Below, piece after piece: positions 5,227 to 13,349 of a stretch of 64,000 nt of DNA. The notes under the pieces were generated by a model. That model saw only the letters and a list, made by a program, of their open reading frames with translations, had not been told where the DNA came from and searched no databases. Source of the stretch: Actinomycetota bacterium (GTDB lineage Bacteria > Actinomycetota > Acidimicrobiia > Acidimicrobiales > RAAP-2); contig JAJPJV010000050.1 in the NCBI GenBank assembly GCA_021324045.1, positions 1-64,000 of the forward strand, read 5' to 3'. The position numbers and the translations under genes are program-made. Within the stretch, counting starts at the first letter, position 1, and every line of letters begins with the position of its first letter.

Positions 5227-7299
5227 TCACACTGGGACGACCATGCACCGACAACCGGGGTGAGCAGGGGGGTGAAGATGGCCTGTCGGGAAACGCTCCC
5301 CCTTGTGCACCTCCTCAGCGAGGGCGTTGTCGCCGCAGTCCGCGCACGAGGTCCCTGGCCCTCCGACGACCCAGCGAATGGTCGCATCCTCCTCGAGCGA
5401 GTCGATGAGGCCACTCGAGAAGCTGCCGAGGGCGTAGTCACCCGCGAGGCGCTCGATCCGTTCTCCCCGCCACTCCCGGTATGCGGCGCTCACGCGCTCG
5501 TCGGCCTGCGGACCACTCTCCAAGTCCGCGCCGTCCTCGCCGAAGAGCCGGCGGCGCAAGAGCGTGACGACGGTACCGGCAAGGGCATGCAGCGCCCCCT
5601 CTACCTCCCTGTCAGGGTCGCTCGTTCGTGCGCGACGCCGTCGGGTGACGCCGTGGTGCGGATCGCTCGCCGGCCCTCCGTCGCCATCTTTGCCTGCGAG
5701 GTGCGCACTCAGGAACTGCGCACCGGCCCGTCGAGCTTCGAGGAGGGAGGCACGGGCAGCTTCCCTCAGCCGATCGCGCTGTTCCTCCTCGACCACCAGC
5801 GTGCTCGGGTCGCGCGCAGTCCCATCTCGCAAACGGTGCAGCAACGCGTTCTGGTCGTCTTGCAACGCTCGCTTCAGCTGCCGCGCAAGCCGTGACACGA
5901 TCGGAGCCAGCAGCTCGTCCCTCGACGCGAGGAGCGCTGCGTCCTCGCTCCTCGGTTGCTCCGACGCTTCATTCCCCAGCTCTTCGTCGGTGCGCGCCAC
6001 CATCGCGAAGTCGGGTGCGTCGGTGGCCGAGGAACGTTCCCACCCCGGTGGAGCACCCTGGCGTTCCGGGACGCCCTCGACGCTGGGGGCCGTTGCGGTG
6101 ATGGTCGTCGGGGGCGCTGCGCCGGCACGCAGCCGGGCGAACAGCTCTTCGACCCGCGCTTGTGCCTCGGCTGGCGGACCGGTTGGCGCTGTCGTGTCCA
6201 CGGGTTGCACGGGCGCTTCCGCCAGGTCGGACTGTTCCGGTGCTCGAGCTGGACCGCCGGGCGAAACGGCTCGGGTCGGACCAGCGGTCGCCTGCTCTCC
6301 GGGCACGGCGCCGGGGTCGCCCCCAGCGACGTTGGCGACGGGATCGACGAGCCCATCGATGCCAGCCTCAGCGACCGTTGCGGCGTCGGACTCCGGCAGC
6401 GGTCCGGCAGCCCTGCGGAGCTCCGTCTCCAGCGCATCGCCGAGCGACGCCTCCGCGACGCCAGGCACCTCATCGCCCTCTGCGACCACGGCCTCGCCAA
6501 GGGCGGACCCGAGGGCCGCCGGCTGACGGGCGCCAACTTGCGCAGCTGCCGCTCGAGCATCGTCATCGGCGCGCGCGAGACCCTCAACGATCGCGTCGAC
6601 TGAACCACGGACGCTCAGCACCGAACGGATGAGCTCGTCACGAGCCGCCCGAACCTGTTCCACCTGTACGAGCAGCAGGCGCCGGCGCTGCGCCATCTCG
6701 GTCAGCAGTTGTTTCCGGGCCTCCTGGGCCTGCTCGATCATCTGGCGTCCACGGTCGCGGGCACGCTCCATGATCGCCTCGCCTTCTTGCCGAGCGGCTT
6801 CGAGGAGGGATGCCGCCTCTTCCTCGGCGTTCTGGCGGAGGACCCCCGCGGTGAGCTCTGCCTCGGCGATTCGCTCCGCGGCTGCGCCTTCTGCCGCCAC
6901 CTGGGCCTCCGCGGCTTGCTGCTGGGCATCGCGCACCACCGCAGTGGCTCGTTCCTCTGCCGCTGCGACCAGGCGCGCCGCCTCCTCGTGCGCATTGCGC
7001 AACACCTGCGCGCTCTGTCGACCGAGGGCCGCCGACAGGCGCGCCTCGTCGATCACAGGGTTCTTCAGGCGGTCCTCGGCGTCGGCGATCGCCTTCTGCG
7101 CTCTGGCCTCAGCTTCCGCCACCTCCCTCTGCAGCTCGGCCGCCCACTGCTCCCAAGATTCGATCTCCTGCGCGACGAGCTCGAGGAACGAGCGGACTTC
7201 GTGAGGGTCGTAGCCGCGCCTCGTAGTCCGGAAGGTTCGTCGAGTGATGTCGTGAACGCTCAACCGGTTCGAGGACACCCGCGGGCGGGACTCGGACAT
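5227..7299 (-). CDS. DivIVA-domain coiled-coil protein with phage Mu F/SPP1 gp7-like C-terminus
   Basis: 690 residues. The N-terminus is a DivIVA domain: LSVHDITRRTFRTTRRGYDP (about 13-32) with the family's GYDP/EV...FL signature, used by polar-localisation proteins to sense curved membrane. Residues ~45-250 are a charged, Ala/Glu/Arg-rich coiled coil. Residues ~260-470 are Pro/Ala/acidic linker. The last ~90 residues resemble the C-terminus of phage Mu F/SPP1 gp7-type head proteins, ending in C652-x2-C655 ... HPPAHPGCRC, with H680, C683 and C685 as likely metal ligands. ATG 7299 is chosen for spacing from a GAGG; 7302 is equally possible. The DivIVA call is firm; the C-terminal relationship rests on motif recognition. 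Confidence 0.8.
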   Translation of the reverse strand: MSESRPRVSSNRLSVHDITRRTFRTTRRGYDPHEVRSFLELVAQEIESWEQWAAELQREVAEAEARAQKAIADAEDRLKNPVIDEARLSAALGRQSAQVLRNAHEEAARLVAAAEERATAVVRDAQQQAAEAQVAAEGAAAERIAEAELTAGVLRQNAEEEAASLLEAARQEGEAIMERARDRGRQMIEQAQEARKQLLTEMAQRRRLLLVQVEQVRAARDELIRSVLSVRGSVDAIVEGLARADDDARAAAAQVGARQPAALGSALGEAVVAEGDEVPGVAEASLGDALETELRRAAGPLPESDAATVAEAGIDGLVDPVANVAGGDPGAVPGEQATAGPTRAVSPGGPARAPEQSDLAEAPVQPVDTTAPTGPPAEAQARVEELFARLRAGAAPPTTITATAPSVEGVPERQGAPPGWERSSATDAPDFAMVARTDEELGNEASEQPRSEDAALLASRDELLAPIVSRLARQLKRALQDDQNALLHRLRDGTARDPSTLVVEEEQRDRLREAARASLLEARRAGAQFLSAHLAGKDGDGGPASDPHHGVTRRRRARTSDPDREVEGALHALAGTVVTLLRRRLFGEDGADLESGPQADERVSAAYREWRGERIERLAGDYALGSFSSGLIDSLEEDATIRWVVGGPGTSCADCGDNALAEEVHKGERFPTGHLHPPAHPGCRCMVVPV

Positions 7300-7404
7300 C
7301 ATCAGACCTCGCTCAACCCGCTGAGCAACCTCGGCGAACCCACGCACGCGAGCCTACGACGCGAGCCGCCGAGGCACATGGGACCGCCTCATCCGCCTGA
7401 ACAC

Positions 7405-8532
7405 TCATCTTCCCGAAGAGGGCTTCTCGAGCTTCCCGCCCAGCCGACGCAATACCTGCAGCGCTTGGCCGAGGCTCGAGACCGCGTAGACATGGAGCGA
7501 CGGGGTCGCCTTCGTCATGGCCGCCCGGTACTCCTGGGGCGGAACCAAGAAGTCCGTTGCGCCAGCTTCCTCCACGGCCACGGTCTTCTGCGGCACGCCC
7601 CCGACATCTCCGACCGCACCAGAGGGATCGATGGTCCCAGTCGCTGCCACGCGGTGACCGCCGGTCAGGTCACCGCCGCCGAGGACATCGAGGATGCCGA
7701 GCGTCAGCGCCAAACCCGCCGAAGGACCGCCGATCCCTGAGGTGTCGATCGAGATCGGAAGGGGGAACCGGAAGTCCTGCTGGGTCTCGACCGCGACGCC
7801 GAGGTATGCCTTCGACGGCCCCCGCACCCCTGGACACTGGCTCTGCCCGCTGATCGCCGATGGACGGCGCGCCAGGGTGATCACCAGCGAGGCGAGTTGG
7901 CCCGGTCGGAGCGCGCCGGTCGGGCTGAGTGTCGTGCGCTCGACCGTGAGCCGCACTCGTTGCCCTGGGACATCGTCGTGGAGGGCACGAATCAACCCGC
8001 AGCTCGTCGTCACTGCCCTCCCGTCGACGGCAGTCACGATCTGACCCACCCGGAGAGCTCCGGCGGCAGGCGAGCCCGGGGCGACCGAGAACACGACCGC
8101 GCCACCATCGTGCTCGGGAACCACATATCCCAACGTCCGCAACGCCGCAGCCTTCGCTGCTGCCTGGGCCTGCGCCATCTCGAGGTACCCCTGCGCGACC
8201 AGCTCGTCGGGAGACGTGCCGGGCCCGAGCAGTTCATCCGAGGGCACGAGCTGGGAGTTCGGCGCCAGCAGGTCGGGGAGGTAGTCGAGCAGGCTGACAC
8301 GGGCGAGCGAGACGTCGGTCAAATAGACGCCCGCTTCGACGCGGTGGGCGTCTTGGTGCGGCACGTGGATGAGCACGTTCACGGGCTGCGCCACCCCGGG
8401 GGTGAGCACGTAGTCATTCAGCTCGATCCGGCTGGCCACGAAGACGACCACGACCACGACCACGATGGCGAGCAGTAGCCACGATCGGCGCCGGCGTGCG
8501 CGGCCGTCAGGAGAAGATCTGGGCAGACTCAT
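7405..8532 (-). CDS. PDZ-domain Lon-like (S16) membrane protease, YlbL type
   Basis: 375 residues. After a basic N-terminus there is one transmembrane segment (SWLLLAIVVVVVVVFVAS), then an extracytoplasmic region, a PDZ domain (GSPAAGALRVGQIVTAVDGRAV) and a C-terminal Lon-type catalytic domain. The catalytic serine lies in GIGGPSAGLALTLG and the catalytic lysine in VPQKTVAVEEAGA, so the Ser-Lys dyad is complete. Family members (COG3480) are anchored proteases in Gram-positive bacteria with roles in envelope or cell-cycle control. The ATG at 8532 is the last methionine before the membrane segment; two upstream Met codons are possible. It faces the divergent HEAT-repeat gene with start codons overlapping at CATG. 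Confidence 0.88.
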   Translation of the reverse strand: MSLPRSSPDGRARRRRSWLLLAIVVVVVVVFVASRIELNDYVLTPGVAQPVNVLIHVPHQDAHRVEAGVYLTDVSLARVSLLDYLPDLLAPNSQLVPSDELLGPGTSPDELVAQGYLEMAQAQAAAKAAALRTLGYVVPEHDGGAVVFSVAPGSPAAGALRVGQIVTAVDGRAVTTSCGLIRALHDDVPGQRVRLTVERTTLSPTGALRPGQLASLVITLARRPSAISGQSQCPGVRGPSKAYLGVAVETQQDFRFPLPISIDTSGIGGPSAGLALTLGILDVLGGGDLTGGHRVAATGTIDPSGAVGDVGGVPQKTVAVEEAGATDFLVPPQEYRAAMTKATPSLHVYAVSSLGQALQVLRRLGGKLEKPSSGR

Positions 8533-9217
8533 GGAGATGACCGATGATCCCATGCGAGTTCGCCGCGCGGTCACCATCGCTGGTCACCGAGGCGACGAGG
8601 CAACCATGCGGGAGGGCCTCGATGCAGCTGATGCGCGCACCCGTCTTCGCGCGCTCGGCGCCCTGGCACGCCAAGGTCGCCTCCGCCTTGACGATCTCCT
8701 GGGGGCATTCGCCGACAGGGCTCCCGAGGTCCGTCGCCGGGCATGCGAGCTCGTTGCCGAGCTGGCGGAGCGCCAGGCGATTGAGGGCCAGGCGGGAACG
8801 ATCGCTTCGCACCACGACGGCGGGGGGGAAGACCTGGTGAACCTCGCGACCGTGGCTCGCCTCCACGGCGCGCTGGAAGATCACGACTCGCTCGTCGTGG
8901 AGGCCGCGTGCTTCGCGCTCGGGGAGCTCGGCACGGCAGTGAGCGACGAGATGATTCGTTCCTTGGGGGCCGTTGCCCTCGCCCACTCCGACACCCGATG
9001 CCGGGAGGCTGCGGTCGCCGCGCTCGGATCGCTCGGTGACCCCAAGGGCTTCGATGCGGTTCTCCAGGCCCTTGGCGACAAGCCCCCGGTGCGACGACGA
9101 GCGGTCGTCGCCCTCGCTGGCTTCGAGGGGGAGCTCGCCGAAGCAGCCCTCGTCAGCTGCCTCGAGGACCGCGACTGGCAAGTGCGCGACGCGGCTCGCC
9201 GCATCTTGGATGCCTGA
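8531..9217 (+). CDS. HEAT-repeat protein
   Basis: 228 residues of tandem helical repeats. Recognisable HEAT/PBS-type units include ARTRLRALGALARQG, EVRRRACELVAELA, LVVEAACFALGELG, RCREAAVAALGSLGDP, VRRRAVVALAGF and WQVRDAARRILDA. Such solenoids bind proteins; there is no catalytic motif. No good ribosome binding site marks the start: ATG 8531, 8537 and 8552 are all possible, and a longer frame from 8465 would run antisense across the membrane segment of the divergent protease gene and is rejected. The stop faces the mreB-like gene tail to tail with about 24 bp between. The cellular partner is unknown. Confidence 0.78.
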   Translation: MEMTDDPMRVRRAVTIAGHRGDEATMREGLDAADARTRLRALGALARQGRLRLDDLLGAFADRAPEVRRRACELVAELAERQAIEGQAGTIASHHDGGGEDLVNLATVARLHGALEDHDSLVVEAACFALGELGTAVSDEMIRSLGAVALAHSDTRCREAAVAALGSLGDPKGFDAVLQALGDKPPVRRRAVVALAGFEGELAEAALVSCLEDRDWQVRDAARRILDA

Positions 9218-9241: not shown

Positions 9242-10249
9242 TCAGCGATCTGCCTGGGCGAAGACAGGGCGGAGCTGGTCGAGCGACTCGAGACAACGCC
9301 CCGCACCCATCACGACACACTCGAGGGGTAGGTCGACGAGATGGACCGGCACCGCAGTGGCATTGGCCAGTCGCTGGGTCACCCCCCGCAGGAGCGAGCC
9401 ACCGCCGACGAGATGGATGCCGTCGAACATGATGTCCTGCGCGAGTTCCGGGGGGGCCTCGGCGAGGCAGGTGACGGCGGTCGAGAGGATCTGCTGAACG
9501 GCATCTTCGACGGCGGCTCGCACTTCTTCGGGTGTGAGCACGATGGTCCTGGGCAGTCCCGTCGAGACGTCCCGACCTCTGACCGGCGCTTCTCGCTCGC
9601 CGGTGTAGGGATAAGCCGAACCGATGGCGAGCTTCACCCATTCCGCCGTCCGCTCTCCGATGGCCAGCGCGTACCGGCTACGGACGTAGGCCTGGATCGC
9701 CCCGTCGAAGTCGAAGCCCCCGCACCGGATGGCTCGAAGCGCAACCACTCCGCCGAGCGAGAACACCGCCATCTCGGCTGTTCCACCGCCGATGTCGACG
9801 ACCATGGATCCCTGCGGCTCGTGAACCGCCAACCCCGCGCCGATCGCTGCAGCCATGGGCTGCTCCATCAAGTAGACGGCACCAGCGCCGGCCCTCCGAG
9901 CCGCCTCCTTCACCGCACGACGCTCGACCGCGGTCAACGCGGACGGCACGCAAACCAAGACCCGAGGACGGTTGAACTTCGTGACCCCACAACGCTGGAG
10001 GATGTTCCTCAGCATCCGCTCGGCGATGTCGAAGTCCGTGATCGCCCCTTGGCGCATCGGCCGGACCGCCACGATGTACCCCGGCGTCCGGCCGATCATC
10101 TGCCACGCCTCCTGGCCCATGGCGAGCACCTGACGAGTACGCGTGTTGTAGGCAACGACCGTCGGCTCATTGAGCACGATGCCACGGCCCTTCGCGTACA
10201 CCAAGGTGTTCGCGGTGCCGAGGTCGATGGCGAGGTCGCCACGAGCCAC
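9242..10249 (-). CDS. mreB: MreB/MreB-like actin-family protein
   Basis: 335 residues, the usual MreB length. Actin-fold nucleotide motifs are present: phosphate-1 DLGTANTLVYAKG near the N-terminus, phosphate-2 VVDIGGGTAEMAV, and the adenosine motif HLVGGGSLLRGVTQRLA. MreB forms membrane-bound filaments that guide lateral cell-wall synthesis. The start is taken as GTG 10249 (VARGDLAIDLG), because the family begins only a few residues before the phosphate-1 loop; upstream codons read as non-conserved sequence. The adjacent genes are not mreC, mreD or rodA, so this may be a second MreB-like copy or a dispersed gene. It diverges from an HtrA-like gene. Confidence 0.88.
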   Translation of the reverse strand: MARGDLAIDLGTANTLVYAKGRGIVLNEPTVVAYNTRTRQVLAMGQEAWQMIGRTPGYIVAVRPMRQGAITDFDIAERMLRNILQRCGVTKFNRPRVLVCVPSALTAVERRAVKEAARRAGAGAVYLMEQPMAAAIGAGLAVHEPQGSMVVDIGGGTAEMAVFSLGGVVALRAIRCGGFDFDGAIQAYVRSRYALAIGERTAEWVKLAIGSAYPYTGEREAPVRGRDVSTGLPRTIVLTPEEVRAAVEDAVQQILSTAVTCLAEAPPELAQDIMFDGIHLVGGGSLLRGVTQRLANATAVPVHLVDLPLECVVMGAGRCLESLDQLRPVFAQADR

Positions 10250-10392: not shown

Positions 10393-11718
10393 GTGACTCC
10401 ATCTGGTCCCGACGTGGAGGGGGCTGGACCACAGGACGCAGACCGGTTCAAAGACGGCGACAGCGCTCCGGGCTACCCGCACCCCGGAGGAGACGAGGGG
10501 CGCGACGACCTCGACGCCTCCGACGATCTGCCGATGAGGGGCTGGCTACCCCTCGAACAGCGTCTCTGGCGGCATCCCTCGGAGTTGGCTTCAACCGGCT
10601 GGCCGGGTGCGAGCGAACGGGCCCTCTGGCCTGTCGGACGCTCCTTCGAACAGACCCAGCGTTCTCAGCGACCCCCTGCATGGTCCCACGCCCGTCTTCG
10701 CAGTGCCTGGGGGACGGCAGCCATCGGGGTCGGTGCGGTCGCAACCCTGGCGATCGGCGCGCTCATGCTCAGCGCTGCGCTCCCTTCGGGGAGTCCGCCC
10801 CCCGCCGACAAGGTCCGTACCACGTCGATCCCGCTCGCCACCGCCTCCTACCAGCAGGTCACCCGATCCGTGGTGGGCATCCTCGCAACCGGGTCCCAAG
10901 GCACCAACTTCGCCTCTGGCGTGGCGATCGGCAAGCACGGTCTCGTCGCCACCACTGCCGATCTGGTCAAGGGCGCGACCGCCTTCAGGGCAGTGCTCAC
11001 GAACGGCAAGGAGATCCCGGCCCGCCTGGTGGGGGTCGATCCGACGTCCGATGTCGGCGTGCTCCAGGTCGAGGAGAACCTTCCCGTGGCGCGCTTCGCC
11101 GATGACACCTCGGTGCACACCGGGAACCGAGCGTTCGCGGTGACGCTCGCTCCCCCAGTCCGTCACGGCGCCACCCCCACACCGGTGTGGTCGGCAACCA
11201 CGATCGAGTCGGCAGATGCCGAGGTCGCCGACGGGCCCGCGGAAGGCATGTCGAGCATCGTCGCGCCACTCCCTGCGGGTTCCCCAGATCACGGGGGAAT
11301 TCTGCTCCGATCCGACGGTTCGGTCATCGGGATCCTCGACCCTGCGAGTGCAAGCCCAGCGGGGGGACGGGTGTTCTTGCCCGCTGACCTCGTTCTGGGG
11401 GTCTCCAACGACCTGGCGACCAAAGGAGCCGTCGTGCACGGCTGGCTTGGCATCGAAGGTCAGGACGTCAGCGGATCCGATGCTCCGACGGGGGCACAGA
11501 TCGGTGCAGAGGTCGTCGCCGTCGACCCGGCGGGCCCTGCCGCAAGCCTGCTTGCGCCCGGCGACGTGATCGAGGCGGTCGACGGGATGCGCGTCCACTC
11601 GATGGCCGAGCTCCGGTCTCGGCTCTACACCCTGCCCCCCGACACCGTGGTCCGGTTGTCCGTTTCCCGTCGGGGCGTCCAGATCACCGTCGACGTCGAA
11701 CTCGCCGCAGCCCCCTGA
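10393..11718 (+). CDS. HtrA-like membrane protein with degenerate protease site, PDZ domain
   Basis: About 441 residues. A Pro/Asp-rich N-terminus contains the motif LEQRLWRHPSEL seen in actinobacterial HtrA-like proteins. One membrane segment follows (about 107-130), then a trypsin-like domain (about 150-335) and a C-terminal PDZ domain (about 345-435, AGPAASLLAPGDVIEAVDG). The catalytic triad looks lost: the TNAH position reads TTAD (D190), the Asp region is kept (DPTSDVGVL, D220), and the GNSGG serine position reads PDHGG (H300). It is probably a non-catalytic chaperone or sensor outside the membrane. The start is uncertain: GTG 10393 or 10414, or the ATG of MRGWLPLEQ. It is divergent from mreB. 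Confidence 0.8.
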   Translation: MTPSGPDVEGAGPQDADRFKDGDSAPGYPHPGGDEGRDDLDASDDLPMRGWLPLEQRLWRHPSELASTGWPGASERALWPVGRSFEQTQRSQRPPAWSHARLRSAWGTAAIGVGAVATLAIGALMLSAALPSGSPPPADKVRTTSIPLATASYQQVTRSVVGILATGSQGTNFASGVAIGKHGLVATTADLVKGATAFRAVLTNGKEIPARLVGVDPTSDVGVLQVEENLPVARFADDTSVHTGNRAFAVTLAPPVRHGATPTPVWSATTIESADAEVADGPAEGMSSIVAPLPAGSPDHGGILLRSDGSVIGILDPASASPAGGRVFLPADLVLGVSNDLATKGAVVHGWLGIEGQDVSGSDAPTGAQIGAEVVAVDPAGPAASLLAPGDVIEAVDGMRVHSMAELRSRLYTLPPDTVVRLSVSRRGVQITVDVELAAAP

Positions 11719-11789
11719 CGGAGTTCCCCGCGCCCCCTGGCGGACCCCGCCTGGATCCGTCGTCGACCTCGTAGCATGCAGGAGTGGAG

Positions 11790-13004
11790 ATGAGCGATGA
11801 CCCTTGGCTGCCAGGGGGACCCTTTCAAGGACTGCTGAACGACCTCCTGAAGGTCATCGGCAGCTCGGGTGGTCGACAGGCGTGGCTCGAAACGGCCCGA
11901 GCGCTCGCGGTCGGGGTCGCGACGGATGGGGGCGAAGACCGCAATGTCGACCCGCTCGAGCGGATCGCATTCGAGGAGCTGGCTCGCATCGCCGAGCTGC
12001 ACGTGGCTGACGCCACCGGTCTTCCGATCTCCTCGGTGCCTTTCGTGCTCACGCCCGTCAGCAGAGGTGCCTTCGCCTCTCGGGCACTCGAGGCGTGGCG
12101 CCCACTGCTCGAGCGGATGGTCGACGCCCAACACGGATCGTTCCCGTCGGCCTCCGACGCCATGGCCGACGAAGGTCTCGGGGCAGGACCCGATCTCGCG
12201 CAGATGCTCGGACGCCTCTCGTCGACCATGGGCCCGATCATGCTGGGCATGCAATTCGGCGCATCCATCGGTCATCTTGCGCAACGAGCTCTCGGCCAGT
12301 ACGCCATCGCCGTTCCGTGGCCTCCCGCACGTGAGCTCCTCGTCGTTCCTGAGAACGTTGCCCGATTCGCCGCTGACTGGAGCCTTCCCGAAGATGCCAG
12401 CCGGCTGTGGGCGTGCGTTCGGCAGGTGATGTTCCATGCGGTCTTCTCACGGAGCCACGTCGTCGCTCGGATGGACGAACTGCTCAACGAAGCGGCATCG
12501 GAGGCCGTCGGTGTCCAGCGGGACCTCACGGAGCGGCTCACACGGGAGCTCTCCCGCCCCGAGGAGCTCCAGCAGCTGCTGAGCGACCCCGAAGCGGTGC
12601 TCGCCGACCTCCTCTCCCCTGGTCAACGGACTGCCTCGGCGAGGCTCACGGCCCTTGCGACGGCGCTCGAGGGCTACGTCGATCACTTCACGAGCGCCAT
12701 CACCACCTCGACGACCGGGTCCTCGACGCAGCTCAGGGAGGCTTGGTACCGCTACCGCTCGGAGGACTCCAGCGGTCACCAGTCAGTCGGAGCCATCTTC
12801 GGCCTCGACCTCGGCAGATCGGAGCTCGATCGGGGCGTCGCGTTCGTACGAGGCGTCCTCGAACGCGCCGGCGAGGACGGCCTGCGTCGCCTGTTGGATT
12901 CGCCCTGGACGCTGCCGACGCCGGCCGAGGTCGACGCCCCGGGGCTGTGGCTCGAACGGATCAACCTGCCCGAGGAGCCGTCGGGAACTCCCCCCTCGGG
13001 GTGA
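11790..13004 (+). CDS. DUF2342 family protein (zincin-like, F420-associated group)
   Basis: 404 residues. It matches the actinobacterial DUF2342 family, annotated as zinc-dependent metalloprotease-like or coenzyme-F420-associated. Supporting sequence includes a hydrophobic Gly/Met-rich segment (MGPIMLGMQFGASIGHLAQRALGQYAIAVP), the block LLVVPENVARFA, and the putative metal helix LEGYVDHFTSAIT, where family members have an E...H helix. Whether it still cleaves peptides cannot be judged. ATG 11790 follows AGGAG with good spacing; a GTG six bases upstream is also in frame. Its stop lies in a hairpin shared with the convergent gene. Confidence 0.82.
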   Translation: MSDDPWLPGGPFQGLLNDLLKVIGSSGGRQAWLETARALAVGVATDGGEDRNVDPLERIAFEELARIAELHVADATGLPISSVPFVLTPVSRGAFASRALEAWRPLLERMVDAQHGSFPSASDAMADEGLGAGPDLAQMLGRLSSTMGPIMLGMQFGASIGHLAQRALGQYAIAVPWPPARELLVVPENVARFAADWSLPEDASRLWACVRQVMFHAVFSRSHVVARMDELLNEAASEAVGVQRDLTERLTRELSRPEELQQLLSDPEAVLADLLSPGQRTASARLTALATALEGYVDHFTSAITTSTTGSSTQLREAWYRYRSEDSSGHQSVGAIFGLDLGRSELDRGVAFVRGVLERAGEDGLRRLLDSPWTLPTPAEVDAPGLWLERINLPEEPSGTPPSG

Positions 13005-13032
13005 GTAGGGACGCCCCCGGCAACCCACTCAC
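13001..13032. terminator. Hairpin between convergent genes, possible bidirectional terminator
   Basis: GTGAGT-a-GGG (13001-13010) pairs with CCC-ACTCAC (13024-13032): a 9-bp stem with one bulged A and a 13-nt loop. It spans the stop of the DUF2342 gene and reaches the stop of the convergent 95-residue gene. There is no T-run, so any termination would be of the GC-stem actinobacterial kind. Confidence 0.45.
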
Positions 13033-13316
13033 TCGGACTCTTCGGGAAAGCCCAGATCCCACTCGAGCGCGAGGTTCTCGCGCTCTGCGTCACGGATCAC
13101 CCGTTCGCGGTTCCGCCGGAACTGGGGATCATGGGGGGGGAGCAGGACCAGCCGCGCGAGCACCCGTTCGCGGAAGGCGTCGATGACCTGGGGATCGCCA
13201 TAGTCGGACTGAACCTCCCAATGGGGCGCGACCGGCCCCAGGTAGACGATCCTGACGTGGCCGACCGGCGGTCTGTCGTGCGCCGGGGCAGGATCGGTGG
13301 CAGTGTCCGCTGACAC
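13029..13316 (-). CDS. Conserved small protein of unknown function, divergent from whiB
   Basis: 95 residues. The core GHVRIVYLGPVAPHWEVQS is followed by a helical region (VIDAFRERVLARLVLL) and a C-terminal block PPHDPQFRRNRERVIRDAE. I recall similar short proteins in actinobacterial genomes but no assigned function. GTG 13316 is chosen because it follows CGGGAGGTCGTC, a strong ribosome binding site; the open frame continues upstream but runs antisense through the whiB gene. It is soluble, with no cysteine and no membrane segment. It shares a ~100-bp divergent promoter region with whiB and may be controlled by the same palindrome. Confidence 0.78.
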   Translation of the reverse strand: MSADTATDPAPAHDRPPVGHVRIVYLGPVAPHWEVQSDYGDPQVIDAFRERVLARLVLLPPHDPQFRRNRERVIRDAERENLALEWDLGFPEESE

Positions 13317-13349
13317 GACGACCTCCCGTCGGAACTGGGTAACTACAGA

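Follow-up and report, generated by a model that had tools for sequence, protein, structure and literature searches.

The window, i.e., the whole stretch of 64,000 nucleotides analysed here, comes from a host genome of 2.75 Mb in 52 contigs and carries an HtrA-like gene, which lies divergent from a gene for a second MreB paralogue (MreB2) and within a block of genes that in many lineages runs in the common order YlbL(-), HEAT(+), MreB2(-), HtrA(+) and Zincin_2(+) (Table 1). The divergent neighbour had been called mreB-like from the sequence alone, and this is borne out by matches above cut-off to both PF06723 (427.4 bits, cut-off 27) and TIGR00904 (399.4, cut-off 365.75). The named relatives closest to MreB2 share 79-80% identity with it and belong to bins of uncultured Acidimicrobiaceae and other actinobacteria, and on this basis the genome is placed in the class Acidimicrobiia, order Acidimicrobiales. 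Another MreB of the same genome, on G000:C2, shows 54% identity to MreB2, and a third, divergent MreB-like protein with 32% identity to MreB2 is encoded at G000:C9:8943-9905 (-) (L048). The window also encodes a DivIVA-domain protein at 5227-7347 (-) (PF05103, 66 bits). Its extended C-terminal part has no Pfam match, and the Cys/His-rich end of that part (C-x-x-C ... H-P-x-C-R-C) looks, on visual inspection, like phage Mu-F type head proteins. A short protein encoded at 13029-13346 (-), in the frame of the longer listed ORF, is a conserved member of the synteny block, its stronger matches showing 50-86% identity, and has no Pfam match.

Table 1. Features of the HtrA-MreB2 locus in the window
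Feature	Position	Strand	Basis
Pseudo-HtrA gene, putatively membrane-anchored, 441 aa	10393..11718	+	ORF with GTG start; Pfam; fold match
Motif R57-L-W59-R-H61-P62-S-E64, predicted cytoplasmic	10561..10584	+	conservation among locus members
Single predicted TM helix, about residues 108-132	10714..10788	+	hydropathy, K/R counts
Trypsin-like domain, probably dead, residues 150-345	10840..11427	+	Pfam, AlphaFold model, DegP alignment, DegQ superposition
D190 at catalytic His place	10960..10962	+	DegP alignment, family alignment
D220 at catalytic Asp place	11050..11052	+	DegP alignment, family alignment
H300 at catalytic Ser place	11290..11292	+	DegP alignment, family alignment
PDZ domain, residues 349-438	11437..11706	+	Pfam, AlphaFold model, fold match
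MreB2, second MreB paralogue, divergent from HtrA gene	9242..10249	-	PF06723; start chosen at GTG 10249
Zincin_2 metallopeptidase-like gene, downstream neighbour	11784..13004	+	PF10103, 181 bits
HEAT-repeat protein, conserved neighbour, candidate alternative partner	8465..9217	+	PF13646; synteny
YlbL/SepM-like PDZ + Lon_C membrane protease, conserved neighbour	7405..8577	-	PF05362, PDZ_2; synteny

In a Pfam scan, the HtrA protein of the window matched Trypsin_2 (PF13365; 50.5 bits over residues 174-314) and PDZ_2 (47.1 bits over residues 352-437), both above cut-off, with no transporter, RodZ_C or helix-turn-helix match, and its score against the Do family (NCBIfam TIGR02037) was 111.7 bits, below the curated cut-off of 416.2. 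The AlphaFold model, computed from 35 aligned sequences of the HtrA locus (the window protein and 34 of the 38 named relatives found), has a pLDDT of 83-97 per ten-residue block over residues 151-441, save one block at 73, and 247 residues at 90 or above. Its N-terminus is of low pLDDT, except for residues 51-60 around the motif, which stand at 70. The best fold match of the model was DegQ (3stj; Z 33.3, 283 residues, 28% identity; VIA-align), DegP was also among the best structural matches, and phmmer against the PDB found DegP of E. coli with an E-value of 5.6e-24. Pfam, the model and the DegQ superposition all agree with the trypsin fold and the PDZ domain that had been recognised by the sequence-only reading.

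The phmmer alignment places D190, D220 and H300 on the catalytic His, Asp and Ser of DegP, which we take, as established knowledge, to be its triad. In the window protein these residues lie in the stretches ATTADLVKG, TSDVGVL and SPDHGGI, and the G-x-S-G-G oxyanion loop was not found, S-P-D-H-G-G standing in its place. The two substitutions and the kept Asp had been proposed with this very numbering, which a sequence check and the DegP alignment both reproduce exactly, and the structure-based comparison to DegP/HtrA that had been suggested as a check likewise finds D, D and H at the triad places. A triad elsewhere in the protein was rejected, as neither the DegP nor the family alignment puts a His or Ser in register, and a sequencing error or frameshift was ruled out by the open reading frame, by relatives that are in most cases equally dead, and by dN/dS values below 1. 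The proposal of a non-proteolytic HtrA is well supported by the missing triad, and the protein probably no longer cuts other proteins, a conclusion well supported at the level of sequence.

Of 41 genomes, 36 gave a match to the window HtrA, the window's own genome being one of them. HtrA genes were pooled from these 41 genomes, from 55 named loci found via MreB2 and from genomes across the class Acidimicrobiia, giving 148 locus members and, once near-copies were removed, 134 distinct ones, which were chosen by W.HP[SATN]E, so that W, H, P and E are invariant among them by construction. Only 10 of the 134 keep H/D/S, at least one triad residue is missing in 123, and one (L066) is unreadable. 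A G-x-S loop accompanies H/D/S in six members (L021, L023, L024, L068, L069 and L182) and is missing in the other four (L028, L204, L224 and L228). The residues found at the three places are diverse: S23, A21, D17, R17, H14 and others in the His column, D64, G54 and others in the Asp column, and A28, P17, S17, gap14, V10 and others in the Ser column. A conserved alternative active site was rejected, because the replacing residues differ by lineage, and for the same reason the idea that orthologues might share the substitutions at 190 and 300 does not hold in the family alignment.

Paralogues away from the locus behave differently. The three other Trypsin_2 genes of the window's genome all have H/D/S, and among motif-less HtrA-like paralogues of nine related genomes the triad is intact in 25 of 26, the exception (L291) being a short stretch cut by a contig end. 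This control took in 30 of 51 matches, mostly the higher-scoring ones, and the 30 trypsin-like genes read include four motif-bearing ones, two intact and two dead. Since the paralogues are intact, the loss in the window HtrA is not a matter of chance, and, judging from aligned residues, triad inactivation is a property of the HtrA locus adjacent to MreB2.

Mapped on the MreB2 tree, a quick tree with long branches that held 8 intact rows (8 of the 10 intact members) and 113 lost rows, the triad state must have changed 7 times or more, well-supported branches forcing 3 of these changes, and the label is unclustered. As regain of a triad is unlikely, several independent losses would be the natural reading. 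Whole domains have been lost as well. Among ten shortened locus members scanned with Pfam, a PDZ but no trypsin match was found in G010 and G018 (family f1), G416 (f3) and G488 (f106), while no PDZ match was found in G030, G289, G547, G152 and G195, all of family f7, of which only G289 shows a trypsin match, weak and below threshold. The motif is present in all nine of these members, and those without any recognisable ectodomain domain still have motif and TM helix. In G543 (f7), the last of the ten, a short ORF encodes the motif but no TM helix and may be a relic. The N-terminal R-x-W-x-H-P-[SAT]-E peptide thus outlasts both the protease and the PDZ domain.

This near-invariant motif is the main feature that was absent from the sequence-only reading, and it likely moves the business end of the protein to the cytoplasm. 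Outside the selecting pattern, R stands at position -2 of the motif in 133 of the 134 distinct members, and 114 of them have P at -5. In the 35-row alignment the mean column identity is 0.82 for the motif block, 0.40 for the trypsin domain and 0.485 for the PDZ domain, and the invariant columns are W59, H61, P62, E64, D216 and G309. With an ectodomain model that excludes the N-terminus, yet was built from motif-bearing rows, the motif was found in 135 of 137 ectodomain matches beside MreB2, near-copies being kept in this count. One of the two exceptions (L066) has a masked stretch and carries the motif in another frame; the other (L194) is a true exception. The latter, in genome G433 (L194:3678-5087 +, family f94), is a fully intact HtrA at an MreB2 locus without the motif; it is possibly an ancestral form or a replacement, and family f94 may help to date the origin of the motif. 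Motif-matching DNA differs at synonymous places, and therefore selection acts on the peptide.

Between the motif end and the most hydrophobic segment lie 25 residues in the median case and 43 in the window HtrA, and exactly one hydrophobic segment is found in 104 of 133 members. Lys and Arg are more numerous before than after this segment in 102 of the 133, equal in 19 and fewer in 12, which by the charge rule would place the motif in the cytoplasm. In the window HtrA itself, hydropathy and charges show one hydrophobic segment and positive-inside charges that favour a bitopic protein with its N-terminus inside.

Searching WRHP[ST]E in the 41 genomes gave 33 matches. The HtrA locus accounts for 28 of them, the other 5 equal in number those of the reversed-pattern control, and at none of these 5 off-locus matches was an HtrA ectodomain frame present. 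A general actinobacterial signal was ruled out by these counts. Outside the class, within the same phylum, 4 matches were found in a stricter and 10 in a wider search, none with an HtrA ectodomain frame, and at two further motif matches in the window's genome the ORF lists contain no HtrA.

The ectodomain has not been released from constraint. For the part after codon 110, dN/dS was 0.14-0.76 in all 49 listed pairs, most below 0.5; these pairs, of 55-98% identity, are nearly all between dead members and are mutually non-independent. The sole intact pair (L068/L069) gave 0.19. Ectodomains are still under purifying selection, for a non-catalytic purpose in the dead members.

Across the class Acidimicrobiia the HtrA gene stays near the second MreB. 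Proximity to MreB2 is built into the named loci and many of the class loci, which were found via MreB2, and opposite strand to MreB2 was used as a filter, so that the statement that all are divergent is partly built in too. The unbiased figure comes from a test blind to MreB2, in which the DNA pattern of the motif was run over 198 class genomes and gave 68 places in 67 genomes: 54 have a listed MreB2 no more than 4 kb away, 8 adjoin a divergent or partial MreB2 (G009, G010, G013, G424, G522, G563, G467 and G488), 3 fall near the end of a contig (G455, G544 and G586), and 3 are chance-like (G441, G445 and the second match of G497). MreB2 at 60% identity or above occurs in 79 of the 198 genomes, the motif in 67 and both in 55 (Fisher p 1.8e-18), a value of little weight, since kinship is uncorrected and both genes share one locus. 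The 12 motif-only genomes comprise 6 with a divergent MreB2 next door, one with MreB2 at 56%, 2 in which MreB2 is partial and sits at the end of a contig, 2 in which the motif is near such an end and MreB2 is missing, and G445, where the match is not on HtrA. Of the 24 MreB2-only genomes, 8 carry a motif variant missed by the pattern (G000, G035, G056, G330, G358, G543, G567 and G580), 10 have no HtrA at the locus, G433 lacks the motif, and G437, G440, G482, G491 and G568 lie outside the fetched set; G441 was scored motif-positive through its match away from the locus.

An HtrA was found in 38 of the 55 named loci; of the remaining 17, 12 have MreB2 but no HtrA, two have less than 750 bp and two have no upstream sequence, and one holds a different MreB from another phylum, so that MreB2 is kept without HtrA at 12 of 50 assessable named loci. 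Among 40 further class loci, read at the locus only, HtrA is missing from 11 (G300, G432, G435, G237, G108, G184, G349, G577, G559, G571 and G441). As MreB2 persists at such loci, HtrA is dispensable next to it. The motif lies less than 600 bp from the MreB2 start in 44 of 132 loci and 600 bp or more away in the other 88 (median 832). In G037 an ORF read from its translation as MoaE-like stands between MreB2 and HtrA, and another, read in the same way as epimerase-like, between HtrA and Zincin_2. Zincin_2 and HtrA are on the same strand in all 122 loci having both.

Which neighbour evolves with HtrA was compared by mirror-tree partial correlation over sets of 107, 78 and 46 loci, HEAT being represented in the last two and YlbL in the last, with rho values only. 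Partial rho with HtrA was 0.29-0.45 for MreB2, 0.28-0.34 for HEAT, 0.12-0.26 for Zincin_2 and 0.02 for YlbL. Covariation is highest with MreB2, and HEAT is nearly as strong and equal in the smallest set; the result leans towards a cytoplasmic neighbour, MreB2 or HEAT, over YlbL, without deciding between the two. MreB2 residues that track the presence of HtrA were set aside, since 5 of 166 conserved columns changing in HtrA-less lineages, with 12 fast-evolving rows left out by name, are too few and confounded by kinship.

DegS and mycobacterial HtrA have a single TM helix and a cytoplasmic N-terminus. The window HtrA shares the trypsin and PDZ fold with the S1C proteases DegP, DegQ, DegS and mycobacterial HtrA/PepD, and its single predicted TM helix with DegS and mycobacterial HtrA; it differs from them in the missing triad and G-x-S-G-G loop, in the Do-family score below cut-off and in the motif. 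To judge by its triad, we think that it works like a pseudo-HtrA scaffold, not like an HtrA protease. RodZ, which is defined by cytoplasmic helix-turn-helix and RodZ_C domains, is bitopic, as is predicted for the window HtrA, which would similarly link an MreB inside to the wall if MreB2 is its partner; unlike RodZ, the window HtrA has neither a RodZ_C nor a helix-turn-helix match, and a separate RodZ_C match lies elsewhere in its genome. The notion that an adaptor is needed because RodZ is missing was rejected, as RodZ_C was matched in the window's genome and in 25 of 40 relatives (26 of the 41 genomes searched). At an E-value of 0.001 or below, the matches fall in 24 of 25 family-f1 genomes but, in the rest of the order, in only 2 of 16.

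In magnetotactic bacteria, the HtrA-type pseudoprotease MamO has a triad that does not function and plays a part other than catalysis; it reportedly carries a transporter domain at its C-terminus and binds metals, and it belongs to a group of pseudoproteases that arose independently in three taxa (PMC4794232). MamO and the window HtrA are alike in HtrA fold, dead triad and repeated loss within their groups, and unlike in that the latter has a PDZ domain, no transporter match and a conserved N-terminal motif on the predicted cytoplasmic side. MamO is the nearest precedent and RodZ the nearest functional model. The Mbl/MreB paralogues of Streptomyces are also a case of a second MreB in an actinobacterium, and are likened to MreB2 on that account alone; unlike the MreB2 locus, they come with no mention of an HtrA partner in the portion of the source drawn on (PMC4255298). 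Searches of the literature on HtrA pseudoproteases, MamO, MreB paralogues, RodZ and Acidimicrobiia gave no description of this family among the matches listed, and the motif sequence WRHPSE had no literature match. HtrA pseudoproteases are known; one reduced around a conserved, predicted cytoplasmic motif beside an MreB was not found in these searches.

The explanation we prefer, although we judge its merits and its doubts evenly balanced, is that of a bitopic scaffold or sensor derived from HtrA, non-proteolytic, with a cytoplasmic peptide that docks a partner, MreB2 being the likeliest. About 107 N-terminal residues would lie in the cytoplasm, where the fixed R-x-W-x-H-P-[SAT]-E peptide would dock the partner, and a single helix would span the membrane. 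Outside, the folded, probably dead trypsin-PDZ unit may bind a ligand in the envelope, probably a peptide whose C-terminus sits in the PDZ groove, and couple this ligand to the inner partner. A filament of MreB2, placed above HEAT, would make this a RodZ-like link from a bacterial actin to the wall side. With the function moved to the peptide, the active site would be free to decay. This would account for triads that died in so many ways and for protease and PDZ domains lost separately; in the intact members some substrate would still be cleaved, and these members may represent an ancestral, regulated state. This reading builds on what was computed, namely an HtrA fold without its triad, triads and protease domains lost more than once, a motif that hardly varies, ectodomains under purifying selection and a neighbourhood found across the class, from which it would extend to topology, to ligand binding by PDZ and, above all, to the identity of the partner. 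The scaffold or sensor in the envelope suggested by the sequence-only reading gains ground as the most likely class, given one TM helix, an HtrA-PDZ ectodomain and purifying selection. Its link to cell shape fares less well and is weaker than adjacency made it seem, as genes that have no evident part in shape lie nearby and MreB2 persists at many loci without HtrA.

Several observations stand against this explanation. In G433 the HtrA at the locus is intact and the motif is missing from it. MreB2 occurs without HtrA at 12 of 50 and 11 of 40 loci and does not need it, the MoaE-like ORF intervenes in G037, the motif lies at least 600 bp from the MreB2 start in 88 of 132 loci, the covariation of HEAT is close, the MreB2 columns are few (5 of 166), and RodZ_C is already in the genome. 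The fullest form of the proposal, namely that these proteins are class-wide actin-membrane adaptors, in which an ex-HtrA anchors the second MreB of Acidimicrobiia via R-x-W-x-H-P-S-E, the PDZ ectodomain reports the state of the wall, and catalysis was lost repeatedly because the cytoplasmic hook carries the function, is held tentatively and is on balance doubtful.

Alternatively, the motif might bind the HEAT-repeat protein, or some other protein of the cytoplasm, with MreB2 no more than a long-standing neighbour, which we consider unlikely. HEAT solenoids commonly bind short linear peptides, seemingly unrelated genes share the neighbourhood and, over the same sets, partial rho is 0.28-0.34 for HEAT and 0.29-0.36 for MreB2; but HEAT was not found in the fetched f7 stretches, of which many keep the motif, a weak argument given stretches of a few kb. 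Distinctly unlikely is a role in the service of proteolysis, in which the pseudo-HtrA, without catalysis of its own, would act as adaptor or inhibitor for the YlbL protease or for other HtrAs, and the motif would merely recruit a regulator. Such a role would suit the YlbL and Zincin_2 genes in the same conserved block, the folded ectodomain retained under selection and MamO, which promotes MamE-dependent proteolysis without a triad of its own (PMC4794232). Yet YlbL showed no rate covariation with HtrA (partial rho 0.02, 46 loci), members without a recognisable ectodomain domain keep motif and TM helix, and YlbL was not found in many fetched stretches, partly because these are short.

Very improbable is a decaying protease gene without present function: catalytic residues do vary without pattern, HtrA has been lost completely at some loci and G543 keeps only a short motif-bearing ORF, but most members have long open frames, dN/dS is below 1 in 49 of 49 listed pairs, the unselected R at -2 is kept in 133 of 134, the fold is predicted with high confidence, and the gene occurs in many families of the class. 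Least probable is re-use of the triad pocket as a metal or small-ligand site by a putative two-Asp, one-His cluster of D190, D220 and H300, for which speak D at both the His and the Asp place in several f1 members and the binding of metal by histidines in MamO (PMC4794232), whereas H stands at the Ser place in one other of the 134 members only and just some of the family have the D-D pair, so that such a site is not the family's function.

One syntenic locus here shows the stages of a pseudoenzyme, from intact HtrA through dead triad and deleted protease domain to eroded ectodomain, with the peptide kept at every stage. If the preferred scaffold reading is right, the HtrA locus would be a natural experiment on the change from protease to scaffold. 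It would also offer a testable candidate for the membrane tie of a second MreB in a whole bacterial class, and the annotation 'serine protease' is probably wrong on activity for most members. Finally, MreB2 is strongly diverged, with 37-48% identity, in G010, G013, G009, G522 and G563 (L035, L036, L046, L232 and L179, respectively), and the HtrA ectodomain is likewise eroded or divergent in these five genomes.
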